Source: Candidatus Rifleibacterium amylolyticum (GTDB lineage Bacteria; Muiribacteriota; Ozemobacteria; Ozemobacterales; Ozemobacteraceae). From it: a stretch of 64,000 nt of DNA. The stretch spans positions 434,001-498,000 of the forward strand of contig JAACJG010000002.1 of NCBI GenBank assembly GCA_009917695.1, read 5' to 3'. Under the pieces are notes generated by a model. The model was not told where the DNA came from. It ran no database searches and saw only the letters and a program-made list of their open reading frames with translations. Shown here piece after piece: positions 52,377-64,000 of this stretch (positions are counted from its first letter, which is position 1; each line of letters starts with the position of its first letter). A program made the translations under genes and the position numbers.

Positions 52377-53372
52377 ATGAGCATGGCTGAAATAAAAAAG
52401 TTTGTAGTTGCCTACGTCAAGACGATGAGACCCTATTATTCGTTCATTACCGGCATCGCCGGCTGGATCGGCGTCTCGTTTTACCTATGGCTCAAAGAAG
52501 TCAGATATGCGACCCCGATCACTAACGATGATTACCTGCGCGGCGTTGTCGTATTGATCATTCTTTTCTCGAGCTGGGGCGTCAACCAGATTTTCAATGA
52601 CTGGCTGGGACTGCCTGAAGACCGTGTCAACGCGCCGAACCGCCCGATGGTCAGCGGCGAGCTCAACGTCAAATGGGCGCTGACGACCTCTTTCACCCTC
52701 ATGGGCATAGCCGCTATCGTTTCTTATTTTCTCAACCCCTGGTCGCTGATTCCTCTGTTTGCCGGGTTTCTGCTCAACTTCGTCTACAACTACAGCAAAG
52801 CCTGGGGGATCTGGGCCAACGTCGTCTTTGGCCTGATGATCTCGACCTGCACGGTTTACGGCTTTCTTGCCATCGGCCCGATTCTTAACGAACCTTTCTT
52901 CACCACCAACCGCTATTCAACCATTCTGCTGGTTGCCTACATGAACGGCCTGATGACCTATTTCACCTATTTCAAAGATTATGAAGGCGACAAGGCCGCC
53001 GGCAAAAACACCTTCATCGTCAGGCATGGCGTCGAGAGAGCTAAAATGCTTGGTATATTCGGCTCATTCATGCCAACTATTCTTTTCTTCGCTCTCAGAT
53101 ATATGAATTATTTTCCGTTTGCCATCACTGAACACTTCGTCTACTGCGGGGTCATGACCATTTTTTTGCAGCTCTGGACAGCGATTCGTTTTTACCGCAA
53201 CCCGGTCGGGCCACGCGCCTACTTCTCGAACGCCACCAACTTCAGGGCATGCGCCTGCGGCCAGGTCACCATGATCGCGATATTCAACGGCACGCTGGCA
53301 CTCTACCTCTACAGCGCAACCTATGTGTTCATCGGCTTTTTGTTCGGACTGCACGACGACGATAAATCCTGA
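52377..53372 (+). CDS. UbiA-family prenyltransferase
   Basis: An integral membrane enzyme of about nine helices that moves a prenyl group to an acceptor. The first Asp-rich motif reads NDWLGLPEDRVNAPNRP (residues 74-90) and the second YFKDYEGDKAAGKNT; both are the family's diphosphate/Mg2+ sites. The acceptor is unknown. Start: I prefer the ATG at 52377 with AAAGG upstream; the GTG at 52362 is possible. The next gene starts 17 bases on. Confidence 0.85.
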   Translation: MSMAEIKKFVVAYVKTMRPYYSFITGIAGWIGVSFYLWLKEVRYATPITNDDYLRGVVVLIILFSSWGVNQIFNDWLGLPEDRVNAPNRPMVSGELNVKWALTTSFTLMGIAAIVSYFLNPWSLIPLFAGFLLNFVYNYSKAWGIWANVVFGLMISTCTVYGFLAIGPILNEPFFTTNRYSTILLVAYMNGLMTYFTYFKDYEGDKAAGKNTFIVRHGVERAKMLGIFGSFMPTILFFALRYMNYFPFAITEHFVYCGVMTIFLQLWTAIRFYRNPVGPRAYFSNATNFRACACGQVTMIAIFNGTLALYLYSATYVFIGFLFGLHDDDKS

Positions 53373-53389
53373 TAATCGAGGAAGCCGCA

Positions 53390-54577
53390 GTGTTTACACC
53401 GCTCAAACTCAGACGCACAACTCTGCCCAACCGTATCGTCAGAGCAGCAACCTTTGAAAATATGGCTGATGCCGAAGGCATACCAACGGCAAAATTCGCT
53501 GAACTTTATAAAAAGCTGGCAGATGGCGGTGCGAGGTGCATTATCACAGGTTTTAACCATACCTCACGCGAAGGCCGAGCCATGCAACCGTTTCAGGCCG
53601 GCATCGACGACAGCCGCAAAATAGCAGGCTGGAAGCAGGTGATCGATAATGTCAAGTCAGCCCAGTCTGAGACGCAACTGTTCATGCAGATTTCGCATAC
53701 CGGTCGCCAGACGCTGCAGCGTGTTACCCGCATGCCGGTTAAAGGTGCCGGCCCGGTCAAATGCACCTATTTCAGACAGCCGGTTAAGCCTCTGACTACA
53801 GATGAAGTCAAAGAAAAAGTCGATGAATACATCAGAGCTGCCATAAACGCTGAAGAAGCCGGCATCGACGGCATACAGATTCATTGCGCCCATGGTTATC
53901 TGATTCACCAGTTCATGTCTCCCTTTACCAACAATCGCGAGGACGAGTATGGTGACGACCGCCTGCTTTTTCTCAAGCAGGTGGTCAACGGAGTAAAGTC
54001 GGCAGTCAAATTACCGGTTTTCTTGAAGATCAGCGCTGCCGATGACCGCCAGCGCGGGCTGAACCTGCCGCTGGTCATTTCATACTGGCCGGATATCGAT
54101 CGTCTCGAAGTTGATGCCATTGAAATCAGCTACGGCATGATGGAAGTCGCCTTCAATATCATTCGCGGAGAACATCCGCTCGACCCGGTTCTTAAACACA
54201 ACTGCCTGTTCAACCGTTATCATCCGGCACTGCGCTGGCTGTTCAAACACTTTATCTATCACTGGTACAAACGCAGTTTTATCGATTACTGCGATCTTTA
54301 CAACCTCGAAAACGCTGCAAAAATCAAGGCAATATCGAAAACCCCAATTCTGGTTACCGGCGGTATCCGCAAAAAGAGCCAGATCGATTACATCATCAAC
54401 CAGCGCGGCATTGACGGCGTGACTCTGAGCCGGCCGTTCGTCTGTGAACCCGACTTTGTCAACCGCCTGGCCACAGGCAGCGGAGAAGTAGTATCAGGCT
54501 GCACCAGCTGCAACCTCTGCACTGTAATGTGCGACAGCAGGCAACCTCTACGCTGTTACCGGGGGCCGGCCAGATGA
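53390..54577 (+). CDS. Old Yellow Enzyme-type NADH:flavin oxidoreductase with Cys cluster
   Basis: A FMN-dependent TIM barrel (about 1-340) that typically reduces C=C bonds next to a carbonyl. It has the family's IHCAHGYLIHQFMSP and RPFVCEPDF signatures. A C-terminal segment (CTSCNLCTVMC, then a further Cys) resembles the [4Fe-4S] site of 2,4-dienoyl-CoA reductase, but the second flavin/NAD domain of that enzyme is absent. It starts with GTG at 53390 and overlaps the exporter gene by 4 bases. It may serve as ene-reductase for the cluster's acyl chain. Confidence 0.85.
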   Translation: MFTPLKLRRTTLPNRIVRAATFENMADAEGIPTAKFAELYKKLADGGARCIITGFNHTSREGRAMQPFQAGIDDSRKIAGWKQVIDNVKSAQSETQLFMQISHTGRQTLQRVTRMPVKGAGPVKCTYFRQPVKPLTTDEVKEKVDEYIRAAINAEEAGIDGIQIHCAHGYLIHQFMSPFTNNREDEYGDDRLLFLKQVVNGVKSAVKLPVFLKISAADDRQRGLNLPLVISYWPDIDRLEVDAIEISYGMMEVAFNIIRGEHPLDPVLKHNCLFNRYHPALRWLFKHFIYHWYKRSFIDYCDLYNLENAAKIKAISKTPILVTGGIRKKSQIDYIINQRGIDGVTLSRPFVCEPDFVNRLATGSGEVVSGCTSCNLCTVMCDSRQPLRCYRGPAR

Positions 54578-56868
54578 AAAAAGCGATCAGCGTGCTTGCT
54601 CACCTTCTGGTCAAATGGGCAAAATACGCGTTCGCGCCTTTCATGTTACTTCTGCTTCTGTCATTTCTGCTGTTAGGCCCGCAGATGTGGCCAATACAGA
54701 TCAACAACACCCTCGACACCTTGCTTGAGCAGGGCACCGAGCAGGCTGCCATCGACAAAAGCATTCAGCAAACCTTCGGCCTGCTCGACGAGATAATAAT
54801 TCTGGCTTATCATGATCCAGATCTGTTCAGCGTTTCCGGACTAAATCTGATCAAGCAGCTGACAGAACAAATCGAAGAAGTCGAAGGCGTTAAAAACTGC
54901 TTCTCGCTCGCCAATACGCCATTTTTTCGCAACTACGAGCGCGATGGCGAATCGATCGTTGAATCAGCCCCTCTGCTCGACACTATACCGACAGACGCTG
55001 CCGGACTGGCGCGTCTCAAGCAGGAAGCCACAGACAACAAGCTGTTTCGCAACAACATCATTTCACCCGATGGCAATACAGCGGCATTCAACATAATTCT
55101 GCGCGCCGGCCTCGATCCGTTTGCCAAAGAAGCCATCGTCAGGCAGATCCGCGCCGACTACACTGCAATGGCGCAATCACATAAAGGCCGCTTCTATTTT
55201 ACCGGCATGCACGTGTTCATGGAAACCACCGGCGTTCAGATGCAACGCGATGTCATGCAGTTTTCGGTGGTTTCGATAATTTTATTATTCATTGGACTGT
55301 ATGTGATCTTCCGTTCGGTGCCGATGGCGTTGATCGGCATAACCACTGCCGGAATCGCCAACTGGCTTCTGTTCGTTACGCTTCACCTCATGGGCAAAAC
55401 CCTGTCGATCTCAACAACTCCGGTGCCCGCCATTACCGTTGGCCTGTCGATTGCTTACGTTCTCCACCTGATTGTGGCACGCAAAGAGGGAATCATCGAA
55501 GACGCTCACGAAACTGAGCAGATCTTCATCGGCAATCTACTTTCGGCACTGACCACGATGATTGGCTTTCTGTCGCTGTGTTTGAACCCGATTCCGACTC
55601 TGCAGGATTTCGGCCTCTATGCTGGCCTGGGCACTTTTTATGCGACCATCGCCGGCGTCTTTTTCGGGTTTCCACTGCTGCAGAAACTGAAAGCACCGCC
55701 GAATCACGATTTTGGCGAAGGGGTCAAGGCAGTTGTCGAAACGGTCTTTTATCGGCATCGCCGACTGGTTATAGGAGTATCAGTCATTATTTTCTGCAGC
55801 GGCATATTCTTGCTGCGCATGGAAGTCGAAACCGATTATTACCAGTATTACCTTCGCTCAGCGCCAATGGTACAGTCGGTAGATTTCGTCAACCGCAACA
55901 TTGGCGGCCAGTATCCGATAGTAATCGAGTTTACAACGCCTGGAGTAGACCAGGTTTACGAAGGCAACATGCTGGGTTGGCTCGAAAAGCTGTCAGAGCA
56001 TGCCATGACTTATAAAGGTGTCGACAAGGTAATAACTTACCTCGACCTTCTCAACGACGGGCATCGCGCCTTTGCCGATCGGCCCGAACCCGGCTGGTTC
56101 AACAACCGTGCCATGGTGGGCCAGGTCGCCATGATGGTCAATGACGCCGGGCCAGAGCTCAGCTCATATTACGTCGATTCCGCCGCACAGAAAACCCAGG
56201 TATTCATTCGCACCAGCCATATCAACTCAGCTTCTTTTCTGGCCATAGACGAGGGAATCAGAAAGTTTCTTGCAGAGAACACACCAGATGGAATCAGCTA
56301 CAAAGTCGGTGGAACATATCTGCGCTGCGTGCAGTCGGCGAATCGCATGGCGCTCTCACAGCTTTACGGAACTTTTGTCGCGTTCTGCGTGCTGTTTTTT
56401 GTGGCATTCATAGCTATTCCGAAGGTCAAACTGATTCTGATGGCTTTCGTTGTGAATCTGCTGCCGATATTCGGCGTTTACGGCCTGCTCGGAATACTTG
56501 GCGAGACCCTGAACATGGGAACGACAACCATCGCGGCGATTGCCATCGGCATCGGCATGGACGATACCATGCATTTTCTCACCCGCTTTACTACATATTA
56601 TGAAGAAACCGGCAACCCGCACGAAAGTGCCAAACATGTGATTCACTCATCGGGAGTCTCGATGATACTTACTTCGAGCATGATCGCCCTGTCGTTTCTG
56701 TCGTTGTCACTGAGCATAATCAAGCCGATCTATCAGCTCGGAATATTCACCAGTGTAACCATGGCGTTGTGCCTGCTGGCCGATCTGTTTCTCATGCCGG
56801 TGCTGGTGAACTGGCAAACCCCGAACCCTGACCAGGCTGTCGAAAAACCGGCTTTGCCGAACAATTGA
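54574..56868 (+). CDS. MMPL/RND-type lipid exporter
   Basis: A 764-residue membrane protein with the MMPL/HpnN plan: one N-terminal helix, a periplasmic loop, five helices, then a second such unit. MMPL members carry lipids and hydrophobic molecules across the envelope, so this is the likely exporter of the cluster product. The helix IAIGIGMDDTMHF carries the conserved Asp pair of the proton relay. The ATG at 54574 overlaps the previous stop (ATGA). Confidence 0.9.
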   Translation: MKKAISVLAHLLVKWAKYAFAPFMLLLLLSFLLLGPQMWPIQINNTLDTLLEQGTEQAAIDKSIQQTFGLLDEIIILAYHDPDLFSVSGLNLIKQLTEQIEEVEGVKNCFSLANTPFFRNYERDGESIVESAPLLDTIPTDAAGLARLKQEATDNKLFRNNIISPDGNTAAFNIILRAGLDPFAKEAIVRQIRADYTAMAQSHKGRFYFTGMHVFMETTGVQMQRDVMQFSVVSIILLFIGLYVIFRSVPMALIGITTAGIANWLLFVTLHLMGKTLSISTTPVPAITVGLSIAYVLHLIVARKEGIIEDAHETEQIFIGNLLSALTTMIGFLSLCLNPIPTLQDFGLYAGLGTFYATIAGVFFGFPLLQKLKAPPNHDFGEGVKAVVETVFYRHRRLVIGVSVIIFCSGIFLLRMEVETDYYQYYLRSAPMVQSVDFVNRNIGGQYPIVIEFTTPGVDQVYEGNMLGWLEKLSEHAMTYKGVDKVITYLDLLNDGHRAFADRPEPGWFNNRAMVGQVAMMVNDAGPELSSYYVDSAAQKTQVFIRTSHINSASFLAIDEGIRKFLAENTPDGISYKVGGTYLRCVQSANRMALSQLYGTFVAFCVLFFVAFIAIPKVKLILMAFVVNLLPIFGVYGLLGILGETLNMGTTTIAAIAIGIGMDDTMHFLTRFTTYYEETGNPHESAKHVIHSSGVSMILTSSMIALSFLSLSLSIIKPIYQLGIFTSVTMALCLLADLFLMPVLVNWQTPNPDQAVEKPALPNN

Positions 56869-56881
56869 GGAGTATCAGCGC

Positions 56882-58126
56882 ATGCAACCCAACCAGATTA
56901 CCGGAATTGGCCTGATTACAGCTGCCGGCGTCGGCTGCGCCGAAAATTACCGCAACTTTACCGCCCGCAATCCTGGAATCTGCACGGTAACCAGATTTGA
57001 GCTGCCTACTGCCAAGGTAAAAACCAATTTTGCCGGCCTGATCAAGAATTTGTCCAATGAGTCTCTTCCGACAGAACTCCTGCCAATGCTGAATGAAGAT
57101 GATCTGGCACAGGACTACGTCAAAGCCGCAGTCTATGTGACCGCCGAAGCGATAAAAGATGCCGGACTAGCAGACAGAGAGGTTTCTGATCCGCGCCGAA
57201 CCGGTCTGATAGTCGCCAGCAGCCTCGGAAATTTTCTCAACGTTTCCGAACTGGTTAAAGATTATTTTATGAAAGAGCTCTACAAGATCACCTCGCTGAT
57301 TCACGGCATGAACAGCTACCTGCCCTCGCGCCTTGGCAGCATGTTCGGCGTTGCCGGCCCCTGCTACTTCGTAAGTTCTTCATGCACCAGCGCTCTCAAT
57401 GCCATACTGCAGGCCGACACCCTTATAAAAAGTGGTGTCGTCGATCGCATGCTCGTCTGTGCCGTCGATGTCTGCCTCGAAACCGGAACCTACCACCTAT
57501 GGAACAAGATCCGGGTGCTTTCACACCGCAATGACAGCCCGCAGACCGCCTGTCGGCCCTACTGCAAGACCCGCGATGGCATTGTGGTATCAGAGGCTGC
57601 CGGTTGCTTTGTCATCGAACGAGCCGAGCCAGCAACTCGTAGCCATGCCACTATCAAAGGCATAGGCATGGCCAACGGTGCCAGTGATTTTCTCAAGCCA
57701 TCGCCAGAACTGCTTGAAGCTGCCATTCGCGAGGCGCTCGCAACAGCGCAGACCCCTTCCGACGAAATCGACTTCATCGCCGGCTCAGCCTCGGGCTCGC
57801 CGCACTGCGACCATTTTGAATCTGAGGCGGTATGCCGCGTTTTCGGCGAACGGGCGAAAAAAATACCGGTATTTCCATACAAAAGCTTTCTCGGATCAAC
57901 CTTCGGAACCCAGGCGATCAGTGAAGGAGCCCTGGCGATCAGATCGATGAACGGAAACCTGGTGCCCGAACCCTTTAATATTTTTGAGCCAGACGAGCGT
58001 GTCAAGGCCAATGTTTATTATAATGCCTCTGATTATGCCGGGTATGAGATCAATAAAATACTCTTTATCAATTACGGTTTTGCCGGCAACCACATGGCGA
58101 TGGTGTTGGGGAAATGTGACAGTTAA
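56882..58126 (+). CDS. Beta-ketoacyl synthase homologue lacking catalytic histidines
   Basis: A 414-residue thiolase-fold protein of FabF/KS length. The nucleophile Cys168 in SSSCTSALNA is present. The two histidines needed for decarboxylation are replaced: HGT/HAT is Ser302 (GSASGSP), and the GH of KSxxGH is Gly338-Ser339 (KSFLGST). Lys334 remains. It therefore probably cannot do normal decarboxylating condensation; it may be a chain-length-factor-like partner, an acyl transferase or a primed thioester handler. GAGGAG precedes the ATG. Confidence 0.9.
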   Translation: MQPNQITGIGLITAAGVGCAENYRNFTARNPGICTVTRFELPTAKVKTNFAGLIKNLSNESLPTELLPMLNEDDLAQDYVKAAVYVTAEAIKDAGLADREVSDPRRTGLIVASSLGNFLNVSELVKDYFMKELYKITSLIHGMNSYLPSRLGSMFGVAGPCYFVSSSCTSALNAILQADTLIKSGVVDRMLVCAVDVCLETGTYHLWNKIRVLSHRNDSPQTACRPYCKTRDGIVVSEAAGCFVIERAEPATRSHATIKGIGMANGASDFLKPSPELLEAAIREALATAQTPSDEIDFIAGSASGSPHCDHFESEAVCRVFGERAKKIPVFPYKSFLGSTFGTQAISEGALAIRSMNGNLVPEPFNIFEPDERVKANVYYNASDYAGYEINKILFINYGFAGNHMAMVLGKCDS

Positions 58127-58153
58127 GATCTGAAGGAAGTTACAGCGATACCA

Positions 58154-58177
58154 ATTACGATTACGATTACGAGCACG
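58154..58177. repeat. (GATTAC)n(GAGCAC)n tract before the ACP gene
   Basis: ATTACGATTACGATTACGAGCAC lies in the 70-bp spacer between the ketosynthase-like and ACP genes, just before the ACP ribosome binding site. Confidence 0.7.
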
Positions 58178-58196
58178 GATAGCCGAAGGGGGAGAG

Positions 58197-58448
58197 ATGA
58201 GCAAACCTGAAATTACGCGTGAAGCGCTGATAGAAAAAATTGTGGCGGCGATTAAAAAGGTGTCGGGCATCAGCATTGCGCCAGAAAAATACGGCGACAA
58301 CCTGTTTGCGCTTGGCCTCGACAGCATCAAGGCAATACAGGTCGTCAACATGCTCGAAGACGAACTCGACCTGATGATTGACGATGCCCATCTGCCAAAA
58401 TTCACCTCAATCGATGCCATTGCCGCCCATTTTGATAAAATTCGGTAG
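58197..58448 (+). CDS. Acyl carrier protein
   Basis: An 83-residue carrier domain with the phosphopantetheine site GLDSIK (Ser43). The LGLDSI form is closer to polyketide-type than to fatty-acid-type carriers (usually GADSL). It would hold the acyl chain for the ketosynthase-like, dehydratase and oxoamine synthase proteins. Its ribosome binding site GGGGGAGAG is strong. No phosphopantetheinyl transferase is in the window. Confidence 0.92.
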   Translation: MSKPEITREALIEKIVAAIKKVSGISIAPEKYGDNLFALGLDSIKAIQVVNMLEDELDLMIDDAHLPKFTSIDAIAAHFDKIR

Positions 58449-58505
58449 GCAATCAGCCTGTAACAGAGGCTAAAGAATACAAAACTGATTTCAAAAGGAG
58501 AAGCT

Positions 58506-59069
58506 ATGAGTTTTAATAGATTTCTGACTATTTCAGTTGTGTTGTCGTTGTTTGTTGTTGGCTTTGCTGAAGCGAGTTTTGCGCAAACCACAGAAGATCT
58601 GTGCAAACAGGTCAAGCAGATAATGCATTGTCTTAAAAACAACCAGATTCCTATGGCCAAAGCGCATATTGCAAGATTTTATCCGCCAGAATACCGGGAG
58701 TATCTAAAAGAAACCTTTGGTGATGAGCTTGGTTCAGCCTACGCACGCGATTTTCAGGAACAGGTATCTTCTCTTGCAGATTTCGTAGAGCTAATGACAA
58801 AAAGATTTCAGATGGAAGTTGATGCTGACTTTGGGGATATCAGATGTTTCAAAATCGATCAGCCATCAGATATTCCAACCTGGGTCTGGCAAAAGAAGCA
58901 GACTTTTCTTCTGCAGAACATGAAAAAACCGGTCTCGCTTTATGAAATAATGTTTTACGTTTCCAGGGATCGCGAGACATTCAGGCCAATTGCAAACTTT
59001 GTTATCATCAACGGTTCATTCAAGCTGATCGGGCAACCCGAAAAGGCAGCCAGCGCTCTGATGAACTGA
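58506..59069 (+). CDS. Secreted hypothetical protein within the lipid cluster
   Basis: A 187-residue protein with a signal peptide ending near ASFAQ. The mature part is helical with a few strands at the end (FRPIANFVIINGSFKLIG). I recognise no family. AAGGAG precedes the ATG. Its place between the ACP and dehydratase genes suggests a periplasmic role in lipid transfer, but that is inference. Confidence 0.75.
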   Translation: MSFNRFLTISVVLSLFVVGFAEASFAQTTEDLCKQVKQIMHCLKNNQIPMAKAHIARFYPPEYREYLKETFGDELGSAYARDFQEQVSSLADFVELMTKRFQMEVDADFGDIRCFKIDQPSDIPTWVWQKKQTFLLQNMKKPVSLYEIMFYVSRDRETFRPIANFVIINGSFKLIGQPEKAASALMN

Positions 59070-59123
59070 TTTAAACCCGCAGCCTCGAAGTTTGTTATCG
59101 ATGCCTGCTTCTGAAAGGGATGA

Positions 59124-59906
59124 ATGAAAGCTGACTGCACCTTTTCGCTGGAAGAATTGCCGTGTCTGGCCGATCATCAGCTGGATGGCACGCCGTTCGT
59201 GCCGATGGCGATGCTCGTCGATGAACTCGCGCGCAGATTCAGCCGAGACTGCTGCAGCTTTGCCGGCATCGAAGTAAAGACGCCGGTGATGCTGCGCAGA
59301 AGACTGGCTAAAACACTGGTTTGCACCTGCGACGAACAAACCTCCAGCCTGCAGGATGAGAATGGTAATCTGCATGCGATTCTTACCAAAGGCGCCAACA
59401 TATTTGCAGACGGCGGTTTTGAGCTGGCAGCACCCCGGGATGCAATTCCCTCAGCCTTGTTGAAACAGCAGCTTTACCCGGCGCTGCTGTTCCACGGTCC
59501 GACTTTTCAGGCTGATTTCGTGTTTTACGAATTCAACCGCCAGACGGTTGTGGTCGAACTCTCTGATTTTGCCCACGAAAACCCGTCTCTGGGTGGATAT
59601 GCTCACGACCAGCGTGTTCCCATAGTTCTTTTCGATCTGCTGTTACAGGCCGCCGGACTGCACCTCATGGCCTTTTCTGATACTTATGGGCTGCCGACGG
59701 CATGCGCAAGCCTGTCGATATTCAATCGCCGGCCGGTCGGCAATGTTCTGGTAAGAGTCACCTGTCATGAGAGTGATCTCTACAGCATAATTGCCGGCGA
59801 TACGACCGGGAAATCGGTAATGACCTGTTCAGGAATACGTTTTGCCAGATCCGTCCGTAAGATAGAAGCCGAAAAAAAAGATATTTTGAAGGAACTTACC
59901 AGATGA
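59124..59906 (+). CDS. Stand-alone PKS-type dehydratase (double hot-dog)
   Basis: A 260-residue protein that resembles the dehydratase domain of type I polyketide synthases: LADHQLDGTPFVPMAM (catalytic His18 with the following hydrophobic segment), FHGPTFQ (123-129, cf. YGPxFQ), and Asp171 in the LFDLLLQAAG helix. This gives the His/Asp pair expected for removing water from a 3-hydroxyacyl-ACP. No other PKS domain is attached. It overlaps the next gene by ATGA. Confidence 0.78.
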   Translation: MKADCTFSLEELPCLADHQLDGTPFVPMAMLVDELARRFSRDCCSFAGIEVKTPVMLRRRLAKTLVCTCDEQTSSLQDENGNLHAILTKGANIFADGGFELAAPRDAIPSALLKQQLYPALLFHGPTFQADFVFYEFNRQTVVVELSDFAHENPSLGGYAHDQRVPIVLFDLLLQAAGLHLMAFSDTYGLPTACASLSIFNRRPVGNVLVRVTCHESDLYSIIAGDTTGKSVMTCSGIRFARSVRKIEAEKKDILKELTR

Positions 59907-61162
59907 ACGATAACGAAGCAACCACCGAGTCCCTGTATGAGCCGCCGCCCGAGAGCAACGACATAACCGAAAAGACCCGTTTCTTTTATCCAAAACTGCT
60001 CGACATTCAGCAAAAAGGCCATTACACCTACCGCCGCACTCTGGCTTCGCCTAGCCAGCACCGGGTAACCACAGTCGACCCGGCGACTGGAGAAAAGCGT
60101 GAAATGCTGATGTTCGCTTCGAACAACTACCTCGGCCTGTCTACTCACCCTCGTGTGATCGAAGCGGCAAAAAAGGCAGTCGTCGACTATGGCTACGGAA
60201 CCGGCTCAGTTGCGCTGCTGAGCGGCACATCAGAAGTGCATCGCCGGCTCGAACAGAAAATCGCCGAGTTTTACCGCTGCGAGAGTGCTGTGGTGTTTCC
60301 GACTGGCTATCAGGCCAATGTCGGCACCATTCAGGCGATGGTCGGTGCCGGCGATGTCGTTATTTCAGACATGTACGCGCACGCATCGCTGATCGATGGC
60401 GTCAAGCTCAGCGAAGGCTCGCTCAAGTATTTTCAGCACAATGACATGGCACATCTCGAGCAGATGCTGATCCGTGCCAGTCGTTTTTTCAAGGGCAAGC
60501 TGATTGTCGTAGATGGCGTGTTCAGCATGGATGGAGACATCGCACCCCTTGATGAGATTCAGAAACTGGCAAAAGCTTATGGCGCCGCAGTTCTGGTAGA
60601 TGAAGCGCATGCTGTCGGCATGATCGGAGCGACCGGGCGCGGCAGCGCCGAGCACTTCGGGCTCGACGGTCAGATCGACCTGACTATCGGCACATTGTCG
60701 AAAGCGCCGTCGGGAATCGGCGGTTACCTGGCCGGCAAAGCCGAAATCGTCGAATATGTCAGACACTTTGCGCGTTCTTATATCTTTTCGACCAGTATTC
60801 CGGTGCCGGTGGCAGCAGGATTGATCGAGGTGTTCGACATTATCGAGCACGATGCCGAACTGCGCAACCAGCTGCGCAGCAACGTCGATTACCTGCTTGC
60901 CGGCTTTCACCGCCTCGGTTTTCACACCTTCGGCTCGTCTACTGCGATTATTCCGGTGTTGATCGCCGACGACATCAAGCTGCGCAAAGTCTGCAAGGCA
61001 CTGCATGAGCGTGGAATATTCGCGACACCGGTGACCTTTCCGGCGGTGGCCAAAGGGCGTTCGCGCATCAGATTCTCGGTAATGGCAACACATACCCGCG
61101 AAGAACTCGACACCCTGCTCACTGCCATGTCCGAACTGAAACAGACCTTCGACCTCTCATGA
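59903..61162 (+). CDS. Alpha-oxoamine synthase (SPT/BioF/Kbl family)
   Basis: A PLP enzyme joining an acyl thioester to an amino acid with loss of CO2 to give a 2-amino-3-ketone; family members include serine palmitoyltransferase (sphingolipids), BioF and Kbl. The 419 residues show PLP sites H160 (YAHASLIDG), D233/H236 (VDEAHAVG) and the Schiff-base Lys267 (GTLSKA). Nearby ACP, reductase and lipid kinase favour an SPT-like lipid role over BioF or Kbl. Whether the substrate is serine cannot be told. Confidence 0.9.
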   Translation: MNDNEATTESLYEPPPESNDITEKTRFFYPKLLDIQQKGHYTYRRTLASPSQHRVTTVDPATGEKREMLMFASNNYLGLSTHPRVIEAAKKAVVDYGYGTGSVALLSGTSEVHRRLEQKIAEFYRCESAVVFPTGYQANVGTIQAMVGAGDVVISDMYAHASLIDGVKLSEGSLKYFQHNDMAHLEQMLIRASRFFKGKLIVVDGVFSMDGDIAPLDEIQKLAKAYGAAVLVDEAHAVGMIGATGRGSAEHFGLDGQIDLTIGTLSKAPSGIGGYLAGKAEIVEYVRHFARSYIFSTSIPVPVAAGLIEVFDIIEHDAELRNQLRSNVDYLLAGFHRLGFHTFGSSTAIIPVLIADDIKLRKVCKALHERGIFATPVTFPAVAKGRSRIRFSVMATHTREELDTLLTAMSELKQTFDLS

Positions 61163-61358
61163 TACTAATACGGTTCCGCAATAACCCCGTTACGCTCCGA
61201 GAAATCGAAGAAAGGGCGCAGGCGGGTTTCTCATAAGCGGAAACTTCGAGCCAGGCAGCTTTGACGCAAAGCCATAGCTATTCACGTCATATTTCGCCTG
61301 GGGAGAGTTGTAGCGAATGAGATTCCGCCGAGAGCCCGACACAGAGTAGAAAAACATC
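61163..61358. other. 196-bp gap inside the lipid cluster
   Basis: The largest spacer in the cluster after its promoter region. It holds no convincing gene. A minus-strand frame continues across it (61190-61501), but overlaps the next gene. No hairpin with T-run was found, so transcription probably continues. Confidence 0.35.
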
Positions 61359-62405
61359 GTGAATTCAACAAAGCTAAGAAATAACATACTGATAACTGGT
61401 GCAAACGGATTTATTGGAAGCCATATCGTCAGGGCTTTCTGCAAACCACGGCACGCCAAGGTTACGGCGTTGGTGCGGCCGAGTTCCGATCTGCGCTTCA
61501 TCAGGTGTTACCCGATCGAAATGATGCATGGTGACCTGGCCAGCGGCAGCTTTGACCCGGCGCAGATGCAAAATTTCGACACAATAGTGCATGCCGGTGG
61601 CAAGGTTGGCGACTGGGGTGACTATCAGGACTTCTACCGCACCAACGTGCTCGGCAGTCTGGCGCTGTTCAACGCAACCCGACATGACAGTGGTTTTGTC
61701 TATATCAGTTCAAATGCCGTGCTTGGCGAAGAAGACGAGGCCCAGGCGAAAGCCGAAAATGCCGAACGCCGGCCGGTATTGGAGTATGCTTTTGAGAATC
61801 TGCTGCCTTCGGCAATGAACCATTACCGTTTGAGCAAAGCAGTCTCAGAGATGCTTTTAATTGCGCGCGCAAAACAGACCGGACGGCGGTTGACCGTAAT
61901 CAGACCGGTCTGGGTTTTCGGGCCGCGCGAGTTCAATGCCGGACCTTATGAATACTGCAAAACGGTTAAAGGTGGCATGCCGCTGATGCCAGGTTGCGAC
62001 AGCAACCGTTTTCATACAATCTATGCCGGCGATCTTGCGAAAATAGTTGTCAAAGTCAGCAACAACATCAAACCAGACATAAATATCTACAATGTTGGCA
62101 ATCCTCAGGTAGAGCTGATGACTGACTACTGGTCAGCATTCTGTGCAGCAATGGGCGTAAAAGTTCCGCGGCATATTCCAAAATGGCTGCTCTATCCGCC
62201 GGCAATGATGATGGAAGCAGCCTGCAGCCTGGCAGGAGCTACCGAACCGCCGCTGTTTACACGCGCAAGAGTCTATATGTTCTATGCCAGTAATGTGTAT
62301 AATGTCAGCAAGGTTATTGATGATTACGGCATCGATAAGTTCACTTCTCTCGAAAAAGCAACACGAGTCACTGTCCGCTGGTGGCGGATGAATGGCTATC
62401 TATGA
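61359..62405 (+). CDS. NAD-dependent epimerase/reductase-type SDR (CerR-like)
   Basis: An extended short-chain dehydrogenase: GANGFIGSH (residues 14-22) is the NAD(P) site, and Y156/K160 in YRLSK is the active pair. The 348 residues and the C-terminal half fit the 3-beta-hydroxysteroid dehydrogenase/HpnA/CerR subgroup. In Caulobacter, CerR reduces the ketone of the SPT product, which is a good model for this gene beside an oxoamine synthase. The start is GTG at 61359 with a weak ribosome binding site. Confidence 0.85.
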   Translation: MNSTKLRNNILITGANGFIGSHIVRAFCKPRHAKVTALVRPSSDLRFIRCYPIEMMHGDLASGSFDPAQMQNFDTIVHAGGKVGDWGDYQDFYRTNVLGSLALFNATRHDSGFVYISSNAVLGEEDEAQAKAENAERRPVLEYAFENLLPSAMNHYRLSKAVSEMLLIARAKQTGRRLTVIRPVWVFGPREFNAGPYEYCKTVKGGMPLMPGCDSNRFHTIYAGDLAKIVVKVSNNIKPDINIYNVGNPQVELMTDYWSAFCAAMGVKVPRHIPKWLLYPPAMMMEAACSLAGATEPPLFTRARVYMFYASNVYNVSKVIDDYGIDKFTSLEKATRVTVRWWRMNGYL

Positions 62406-62421
62406 CTTCAGGAGGCACGCA

Positions 62422-63717
62422 ATGAGCAGACCGCGATTTCTGATCGGCCCGGCAAAACTGCTGTTTTATACCCGCATGGTGATTCATGTTTTTCTGCATT
62501 ATCTACTGCGCCTGCTCAAGTGCGAACTCGGGCCGACAGGCTTCGTACTGTTGCTGAAACGGCTTATACTTTTTCTCAACGCGGTTCGACACAACAAGGT
62601 CGTCGAGGTCGATGGCAAATACAAGTTTCAGCTCTACATGCCAGCCTACCCAACCCCTGCTTTCTGGGAATCAATCGAAAAATTCATCAGACCCGACCCG
62701 GGCCCACTGACCGTGGTATTTTCGATGACCAAAGCCTGTGGCTACAAGTGCCCACATTGTTATCAGCGCAACGATACCGGTGCTGATCTCGATATCGAAC
62801 TGCTCAAAAAGACGGCCCGCCAGATGCAGGAAGTTGGTGTAACCATGTTCGACATCGAAGGCGGCGAACCGCTGCTGATGTTCGACCGGCTGATCGAACT
62901 GCTTAAAGCGTTTGATAACAAACGCGAGCTATGGGTTAACACTACCGGCCATACTCTAACACCCGAAAAAGTGCAGAAACTCAAAGAAGCCGGGCTTTTC
63001 GGCGTCATGATTTCGCTGCACTCGATCGACGAGAAGGAATACGACAAGTTCACCGGCTTTCCCGGCTCTTTTGGTATAGCCCGTGATGCCGTCAGACAGT
63101 TTGTCGATGCAGGTATCGTCGTCGCGATAAACTGCTGTCCGTCAGCCGAAATGGTGGCCGATGGCACGGTCGAGCGAGTATTCGAACTGACAAAACAATG
63201 GAACTGCTCATATATTCAGGTCATTCACGGCAAGTCAGCTGGCGCCTGGCTCGGCAAAGACGACGAAATGATCAAGGCCGATGCCTCGATACGCAAACTC
63301 AACCAGATTCATCTCGATTACAACCTGCTGTCGCGCTATCGCGATCATCCTGCGCCGGCAGTGCAGGTTTTCGAGGAAAACGAGCAACATTTTGGCTGCA
63401 CTTCGGGTGGCATAGACCGTTTCTACATCGGTGCCAATGGCGATGTTCAACCCTGCGAGTTTTTGAACGTCTCGTTCGGCAATGTTAACGAAGAAGACTT
63501 TCTGACCATTTTCAGGCGGATGCGCGAGTATTTCAAAGAACCGGGCTGTCGCTGGCTGTGTTCGCGTGAAGCGCACACAATCTACGAGACAATGCAGGAA
63601 AACAAGCTGACCGCTACCCCGCTGCCCTGGAAATACACGAAAGATCTGCTGAAAAAGTGGGATTACGGCCGCAAGACGCCGTTATACAGAAAAATGGGAA
63701 TCTATAAAAACCAGTAG
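62422..63717 (+). CDS. Radical SAM enzyme with SPASM-like C-terminus
   Basis: The cluster motif CxxxCxxC (Cys106, 110, 113) binds the [4Fe-4S] that cleaves SAM. GGEP follows in the barrel. A ~90-residue N-terminal extension with hydrophobic helices may hold it at the membrane, and a C-terminal Cys-containing part (CTSGG, QPCEF, CRWLCSREA) resembles SPASM auxiliary-cluster regions. I cannot name the substrate. The ATG at 62422 has AGGAGG upstream; an ATG at 62392 overlaps the previous gene. Confidence 0.88.
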   Translation: MSRPRFLIGPAKLLFYTRMVIHVFLHYLLRLLKCELGPTGFVLLLKRLILFLNAVRHNKVVEVDGKYKFQLYMPAYPTPAFWESIEKFIRPDPGPLTVVFSMTKACGYKCPHCYQRNDTGADLDIELLKKTARQMQEVGVTMFDIEGGEPLLMFDRLIELLKAFDNKRELWVNTTGHTLTPEKVQKLKEAGLFGVMISLHSIDEKEYDKFTGFPGSFGIARDAVRQFVDAGIVVAINCCPSAEMVADGTVERVFELTKQWNCSYIQVIHGKSAGAWLGKDDEMIKADASIRKLNQIHLDYNLLSRYRDHPAPAVQVFEENEQHFGCTSGGIDRFYIGANGDVQPCEFLNVSFGNVNEEDFLTIFRRMREYFKEPGCRWLCSREAHTIYETMQENKLTATPLPWKYTKDLLKKWDYGRKTPLYRKMGIYKNQ

Positions 63718-63720
63718 AAC

Positions 63721-63753
63721 GATTACGAGCACGAGCACGAGCACGAGCACGAG
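63721..63753. repeat. GATTAC(GAGCAC)n tract
   Basis: GATTAC followed by four copies of GAGCAC and GAGG, between the radical SAM gene and the lipid kinase. Same family as at 27131-27180 and 58154-58177. Confidence 0.75.
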
Positions 63754-63770
63754 GAAACAGGATAACCTGA

Positions 63771-64000
63771 ATGGATGTTTTGGATCGACAAAAACAGGCA
63801 GATCGACCGGTAGAATCTCTGTTTCTGGTGCTGAACCCTTCTTCGCGGTCGTTTAGCGGGCAGAAGAAGTGGCCGCGGATTTTTGAACTGCTCGAACGCT
63901 CGGGTGTTTGCTACGAGCAGGCGCTTACCAGCCAGAGCGGCGACGGCACCCGCCTCGCCTTCGAAGCAGCAAAGCGCGGCTTCAATGCAATAATCGCGGT
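63771..64000 (+). CDS. Diacylglycerol/sphingosine-kinase family protein (5' part)
   Basis: The first 76 codons of a gene that continues beyond the window. LFLVLNPSSRSFSGQKKW is the nucleotide-binding start of the DAGK/LCB5 family, followed by the expected helix and GFNAIIAV just before where GGDGT should come. Such enzymes phosphorylate diacylglycerol, sphingoid bases or ceramide. This supports a lipid product for the cluster. Confidence 0.85.
   Translation, partial: MDVLDRQKQADRPVESLFLVLNPSSRSFSGQKKWPRIFELLERSGVCYEQALTSQSGDGTRLAFEAAKRGFNAIIA

Follow-up and report, generated by a model that had tools for sequence, protein, structure and literature searches.

The question raised by this locus is what product is made by a run of co-directional genes in which an alpha-oxoamine synthase (AOS) is accompanied by a UbiA-family prenyltransferase. 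The chemistry of AOS lipids, such as sphingolipids and sulfonolipids, is usually treated as separate from that of the isoprenoid lipids made by UbiA enzymes; a conserved gene set that joins both leads to the testable prediction of a mixed lipid and touches on the strictness of this lipid divide. The window analyzed here is a stretch of 64,000 nucleotides from Candidatus Rifleibacterium amylolyticum, whose genome (G000) is a 5.39-Mb MAG of an uncultured member of Candidatus Riflebacteria. The reading favored here, held tentatively, is that the operon directs the synthesis and export of a membrane lipid built on a phosphorylated, sphingoid-like amino alcohol and bearing an isoprenoid chain.

Gene content and borders of the operon

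A preliminary description of this DNA placed eleven co-directional genes at 52377-64000, and open frames, all on the + strand, are found at these positions. Its domain calls are matched by Pfam for UbiA, Oxidored_FMN, MMPL, ketoacyl-synthase, PP-binding, aminotransferase, SDR, and radical SAM/SPASM. The genes are as follows:

52377..53372, +, UbiA-family membrane prenyltransferase (Pfam UbiA, 97 bits)
53390..54577, +, OYE / 2-enoate-reductase-type flavoprotein, short form (Pfam Oxidored_FMN, 154 bits)
54574..56868, +, predicted MMPL/RND-type lipid exporter (Pfam MMPL, 77 bits)
56882..58126, +, FabF-like ketosynthase (KS) homologue (Pfam ketoacyl-synthase; alignment to E. coli FabF)
58197..58448, +, dedicated acyl carrier protein, ACP (Pfam PP-binding; phosphopantetheine site LGLDSIKA)
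58506..59069, +, 187-aa protein with a signal-peptide-like N-terminus, outside all Pfam and NCBIfam families
59124..59906, +, stand-alone PKS-type double-hotdog dehydratase, DH (AlphaFold/Foldseek; motifs)
59903..61162, +, AOS (Pfam class I/II aminotransferase; tree; SPT-type signatures)
61359..62405, +, extended NAD(P)-dependent SDR (Pfam Epimerase, 94 bits; 3Beta_HSD, 51)
62392..63717, +, radical SAM/SPASM enzyme, rSAM (Pfam/NCBIfam; CxxxCxxC)
63771..64739, +, DAGK/YegS-fold lipid kinase, cut by the window end at 64000 (full protein: DAGK_cat, 73 bits; YegS_C, 63 bits)
64859-65848, beyond the window and after the lipid kinase, ThiL-like kinase (ThiL/AIR-synthase-like)

Because the lipid kinase is completed past the window end and the ThiL-like gene comes next, the unit comprises 12 genes. 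Overlaps of a few bases between OYE and MMPL, DH and AOS, and SDR and rSAM suggest translational coupling. On the 5' side, the operon is bordered by a divergent ABC-F-like ATPase gene, together with ClpS- and ClpA-like genes; on the 3' side, an 880-base gap follows the ThiL-like gene and precedes a selenouridine synthase-like gene (YbbB, as read from the translation). An Rfam scan of the 20 kb around the operon returned no matches. None of the ten operon proteins scanned reached an NCBIfam equivalog cut-off, and all are therefore outlying members of their families. The 187-aa protein, for which no homologue was found in related loci, looks secreted.

Conservation within Riflebacteria

As the preliminary description had anticipated, the gene order is kept in the Riflebacteria loci that were compared. 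The entire operon, minus the gene for the 187-aa protein, recurs in G002 and G005, which belong to the same genus as G000; in G001, of this genus as well, UbiA-OYE-MMPL-KS runs off a contig end. A block of KS-ACP-DH-AOS-SDR-rSAM-kinase is intact in G010 and G017 and starts at a contig edge in G006, with UbiA-OYE at another genome site in all three, and in G015 a UbiA-OYE-MMPL block lies divergent beside it. In G008 and G020, which have UbiA-OYE-MMPL, the SDR and rSAM are the same, and the AOS and KS are of a different type. The lipid kinase (L033/L034) and the SDR (L035) sit in overlapping frames and were detected by profile search. OYE adjoins UbiA in the Riflebacteria loci and in the related locus of another phylum (L120, described below), and MMPL is kept with this pair in most loci. 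The AOS of the window is 91% identical to that of named relatives, such as HGW-Riflebacteria-1.

UbiA is present in 10 of 40 Riflebacteria genomes, and all seven genomes having the cluster AOS possess it, including the three in which the two genes are unlinked. Across the 40 genomes, the co-occurrence of UbiA with the cluster or variant AOS gives a Fisher p of 3.6e-7, uncorrected for shared ancestry. These gene families co-occur more than by chance: they recur in ten genomes of Riflebacteria and, outside this group, in Micromonosporaceae, in a nanoarchaeon, and in a bacterium from another phylum. The proposal of a conserved AOS-based lipid-type cluster is sustained. From the sequences compared, UbiA, SDR, kinase, and rSAM, often plus OYE, MMPL, and ThiL, appear to constitute a tailoring core, to which an exchangeable front end of AOS, KS, ACP, and DH is joined; the swapping of AOS and KS with retention of this core points to a modular design. 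Separately, seven loci of other Riflebacteria genomes (L039, L040, L041, L042, L043, L044, and L045) hold a second AOS clade that is absent from G000; a distant lipid-kinase homologue neighbors the AOS in five of the seven. This clade is probably a separate sphingolipid-like system.

The alpha-oxoamine synthase

A grouping of the AOS with Kbl or BioF, a point raised in the preliminary description, is not seen in the tree (101 rows): seven Riflebacteria sequences form their own clade (100/100), apart from E. coli Kbl and BioF. Another clade (100/99) unites the nanoarchaeal, STE_202, and G007/G008/G020 sequences, and the Micromonospora AOS groups with SPT of Bacteroidota and Cloacimonadota. The active-site signatures of the window AOS, DEAH and TLSK, are of the SPT type, and those of the variant and nanoarchaeal AOS are of the Kbl/BioF type; because of these latter motifs, the amino acid used may differ between clusters. 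Overall similarity is about equal on both sides, with 37% identity and 268 bits against Kbl and 39% and 256 bits against SPT, and the score against the NCBIfam SPT model is 377 for a cut-off of 640.

It is scarcely credible that the AOS belongs to primary metabolism as a paralogue of BioF or Kbl and has its neighbors by coincidence. Its best raw NCBIfam scores, glycine C-acetyltransferase at 408 bits and bioF at 398 bits, would suit such an origin, though both are under cut-off; however, the position in the tree and the conservation of the operon speak against it, and no biotin or threonine genes (bio, tdh), which the preliminary description had named as telling neighbors, lie within 19 kb downstream. 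This reading was rejected on the tree and the neighboring genes.

Some AOS loci of other kinds were encountered. On a Thioclava plasmid (NZ_CP135444, 505 kb; L150, 711-11155), an AOS placed in the tree as the partner of the cluster AOS clade is accompanied by an ACP, an AMP-binding protein, a KS, and a PPTase, apparently an AOS natural-product cluster new to description. In G017 (contig C1; L134, 2813-11967), an AOS adjoins an open frame of 2596 aa that gives a ketosynthase match, an arrangement recalling the PKS-AOS pair SgaAB. Downstream of the AOS of a Myxococcota MAG (L069, 9974-18020), kinase-like and ThiL-like genes are found and UbiA is absent, suggesting that the kinase-ThiL pair recurs with AOS.

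Acyl supply: ketosynthase, carrier protein, dehydratase, and flavoprotein

In alignment with E. coli FabF, the window KS retains the catalytic Cys, and both catalytic His residues are replaced by Ser; both are missing in all six compared sequences of this type, whereas the KS of the variant clusters (L126, L127, and L120) has an intact Cys-His-His triad. A chain-elongating function of the window-type KS was rejected on the loss of both His residues, and the protein is probably a KS0-like acyl transferase. The ketosynthase homology proposed earlier stands; with both His residues gone, KS, DH, and OYE are not a standard chain-extension set. The ACP, encoded three genes upstream of the AOS in the same operon, is 33% identical to the sphingolipid AcpR of E. 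coli BL21 over 58 residues.

The proposal of a stand-alone PKS-type dehydratase is confirmed by fold and motifs, with a PKS-DH score below the Pfam cut-off. Its AlphaFold model (pLDDT 87) has PKS DH domains and double-hotdog relatives as its best Foldseek matches (E 9e-12), and the motifs HxxxGxxxxP, YPxxxxHGPxxQ, and DxxxQ are conserved, the first and third being invariant. The OYE carries a conserved C-terminal Cys cluster, CxxCxxC...C.

Reductase, kinase, exporter, and the search for ligase and N-acyltransferase genes

The SDR retains the YxxxK catalytic pair, with Y156 and K160 invariant, and is 24% identical to CerR of E. coli BL21, so that its previous labeling as CerR-like is weak. The rSAM carries CxxxCxxC and an N-terminal extension of about 100 aa; among the Riflebacteria and nanoarchaeal proteins, identity is 45-91%, and its solved relatives are all distant. 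The exporter scores 129 bits with the NCBIfam HAE3 model, under cut-off. The lipid kinase has the DgkB/YegS fold, and its GTSPDF signature is invariant in Riflebacteria, L120, and the nanoarchaeon. An AMP-ligase and a CerS were to be looked for past 64 kb: neither is at the locus, and the ligase is absent from the operon and from the 19 kb downstream. A search of ten Riflebacteria genomes for a YghO/CerS-type (CC_1154-type) N-acyltransferase gave no credible match, unrelated ceramide synthases being outside its reach.

The match to bacterial sphingolipid sets that had been put forward is partial: the ACP agrees with it, the missing AMP-ligase and CerS do not, and the AOS (SPT-type motifs, separate clade) and the SDR (YxxxK, low identity to CerR) give mixed signs. 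The same evidence bears on whether the operon encodes a variant sphingolipid pathway yielding a phospho-long-chain-base or ceramide-phosphate. UbiA, OYE, and rSAM would then modify the head group or work on a different product nearby, and any second chain would be a fatty acid from an unrecognized acyltransferase. The ACP, AOS, SDR, and kinase do parallel the acpR-spt-cerR genes and the ceramide kinase step of E. coli and Caulobacter (PMC9386255, PMC11324152), as do the AOS motifs those of SPT; yet the gaps just named, the low identity to CerR, and the tracking of the AOS by UbiA in seven of seven genomes render this alternative unlikely.

The UbiA prenyltransferase

By profile, PDB sequence, and fold, the UbiA protein is closest to DGGGP synthase, and its fold matches UbiA structures. 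Its first Asp motif is altered (NDWLGLPED, against the canonical NDxxDxxxD), with the second, KDYEGDKAAG, intact. The Riflebacteria, STE_202, and nanoarchaeal proteins form one clade (99/98) and all have NDxxGxxED instead of NDxxDxxxD; the Micromonospora UbiA has a canonical motif. When E. coli UbiA, ChlG, and DGGGPS are included, the branches of the tree are very long, and it does not single out any of these outside families as the nearest. Because one Asp of the first metal motif is absent, UbiA may take something other than an ordinary prenyl diphosphate as its donor. G000 encodes a polyprenyl synthase. None of the seven Riflebacteria genomes searched has GGGP synthase (PF01884), for which reason a function of UbiA in canonical archaeal lipid synthesis is unlikely, and its membership of an archaeal-type lipid pathway in the bacterium was rejected.

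The altered motif would also fit a scheme in which the two kinases make a long-chain alcohol diphosphate that serves as the UbiA donor, so that UbiA would move the sphingoid-like chain and not an isoprenoid. ThiL converts a monophosphate to a diphosphate, and in G000, G002, G005, G017, L120, and Micromonospora a ThiL-like gene lies within or close to the cluster or its UbiA module. Such a route, however, needs the alcohol to be allylic or activated in some other way, no ThiL-like gene is seen on the nanoarchaeal contigs, and the Micromonospora motif is canonical; it is considered very improbable.

Recurrence outside Riflebacteria

Parts of the set are found in a Nanoarchaeota MAG (G058) on two contigs. 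On L102, an AOS and a kinase are followed by the first part of an SDR, and on L141 the last part of an SDR comes with the rSAM and UbiA; both gene runs are cut off by the contig end. The pieces fit a single operon with a gap, and the SDR-rSAM order is that of Riflebacteria. Both contigs carry archaeal genes above cut-off, namely signal peptidase I (L102) and phosphoglucose/phosphomannose isomerase (L141). The nanoarchaeal rSAM is 45% identical to that of the window and occurs in 1 of 371 genomes of its phylum, where it is therefore rare. MAG STE_202 (G057), from another phylum, has UbiA-OYE-ACP-AOS-kinase-ThiL-KS at locus L120. Elsewhere in this MAG (L168, G057:C241), a good homologue of the YghO-type CerS is encoded, and a conventional ceramide pathway may exist there too. 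In Micromonosporaceae, AOS-UbiA-ThiL-SDR-kinase is followed by a glycosyltransferase and an acyltransferase; the UbiA of this set is found in 5 of 121 genomes of the family, and the set, which the cultured M. chalcea DSM 43026 carries, offers a route to cultured organisms.

Among 80 AOS loci with flanks of up to 10 kb, UbiA is confined to these three groups and Riflebacteria, bar one 24-bit match. The closest AOS outside Riflebacteria in named genomes (L052, L053; 45-46% identity) lack all partner genes. No relative of the cluster was found in the plasmid collection, where rSAM matches are distant enzymes only; a Haloferax plasmid with AOS and UbiA was ruled out as a relative, as the genes are more than 50 kb apart.

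The operon could instead make a natural product for export, of an amino-polyol or aryl-polyene-like kind and with a small core that UbiA prenylates, and not a membrane lipid produced in bulk; the patchy distribution (10/40 Riflebacteria, 5/121 Micromonosporaceae) would suit this. The KS, ACP, DH, and MMPL genes resemble aryl-polyene-type sets, and the two genes that continue the Micromonospora operon favor the same conclusion. Nevertheless, a KS devoid of its catalytic His residues would build no chain, the lipid kinase and the DGGGPS-like UbiA point to a lipid, and the set is conserved in a nanoarchaeon; this explanation is accordingly judged quite improbable.

Proposed pathway

In the scheme that the sequences suggest for the phosphorylated amino-alcohol lipid, the His-less KS would transfer an acyl group, possibly 3-hydroxyacyl, from fatty acid synthesis to the dedicated ACP, and the stand-alone DH, possibly with the OYE, would set the double-bond state of the chain. 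The AOS would then join the acyl-ACP to serine or a similar amino acid, and the resulting amino-ketone would be reduced by the SDR. The DAGK-fold kinase would phosphorylate the product, with a second phosphate, or activation of the product, possibly owed to the ThiL-like kinase. UbiA would place an isoprenoid chain on a free OH or NH2 group, replacing ceramide synthase, before modification of the lipid by the rSAM and its export by the MMPL protein. What the analysis establishes is the set of genes, how it is conserved, and the folds and motifs of its proteins; all of the reactions are inferred. Reduction, phosphorylation, and export are plausible in this pathway, and the roles given to OYE, rSAM, and ThiL are guesses.

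UbiA resembles the archaeal enzyme that adds a second isoprenoid chain to a phosphorylated glycerol backbone. Assigning the second chain to it would explain at once why CerS is missing, why the UbiA is of this type, and why it tracks the AOS when the two are unlinked. The hybrid lipid is further favored because the AOS/UbiA/kinase set recurs in Riflebacteria, the nanoarchaeon, STE_202, and Micromonosporaceae, because every genome with the cluster AOS has UbiA, and because of the SPT-type AOS motifs and the polyprenyl synthase in G000. Counted against it are the near-equal similarity of the AOS to Kbl and SPT, the Kbl/BioF-type motifs of the variant and nanoarchaeal AOS, the Asp missing from the first UbiA motif, and the separation of UbiA from the AOS in G010, G017, and G006. 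The broader claim is that of a new class of membrane phospholipids, in bacteria and at least one DPANN archaeon, that pair an amino-alcohol chain derived from a fatty acid with an isoprenoid chain and are made by AOS, reductase, kinase, UbiA, and radical SAM. It is possible but doubtful; if true, sphingolipid chemistry and archaeal lipid chemistry would be combined in a natural hybrid.

Comparison with known systems

No report joining AOS with UbiA was found in the open-licence literature, and neither was a described pathway with this gene set, in line with what the preliminary description had stated; both are weak evidence of absence. The operon is apparently an undescribed, conserved variant of AOS-based lipid biosynthesis. 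Aryl polyene and dialkylresorcinol clusters bring KS, ACP, DH, and an MMPL-type exporter together, as does the Riflebacteria operon, but they are without AOS, UbiA, and lipid kinase, and their KS is chain-elongating, unlike that of the window. Archaeal DGGGP synthase (MjDGGGPS, 6m31/7bpu) is the closest solved UbiA by sequence and fold, and its substrate is a phosphorylated lipid backbone; the Riflebacteria enzyme differs in its altered first Asp motif, its AOS neighbor, and a host without GGGP synthase.

In the SgaAB polyketide-sphinganine pathway of Pseudomonas fluorescens MYb115, a PKS-type system likewise feeds a chain to an AOS; however, SgaA is an iterative type I PKS, in place of which the Riflebacteria operon has a separate His-less KS, ACP, and DH, and UbiA goes unmentioned in that paper (PMC12134224). 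The proteobacterial sphingolipid operon aasR-cerR-acpR-spt with cerS (E. coli BL21; Caulobacter CC_1162-1165, CC_1154) is alike in an AOS with a dedicated ACP, in an epimerase-type SDR, and, in Caulobacter, in a lipid kinase step. It has an acyl-AMP ligase and CerS, whereas the Riflebacteria operon has neither of these and a His-less KS; most simply, the His-less KS would load the ACP, the role that AasR has in Caulobacter (PMC9386255). To the proteobacterial set, the Riflebacteria operon adds UbiA, OYE, rSAM, DH, MMPL, and ThiL, and its AOS belongs to a separate clade.
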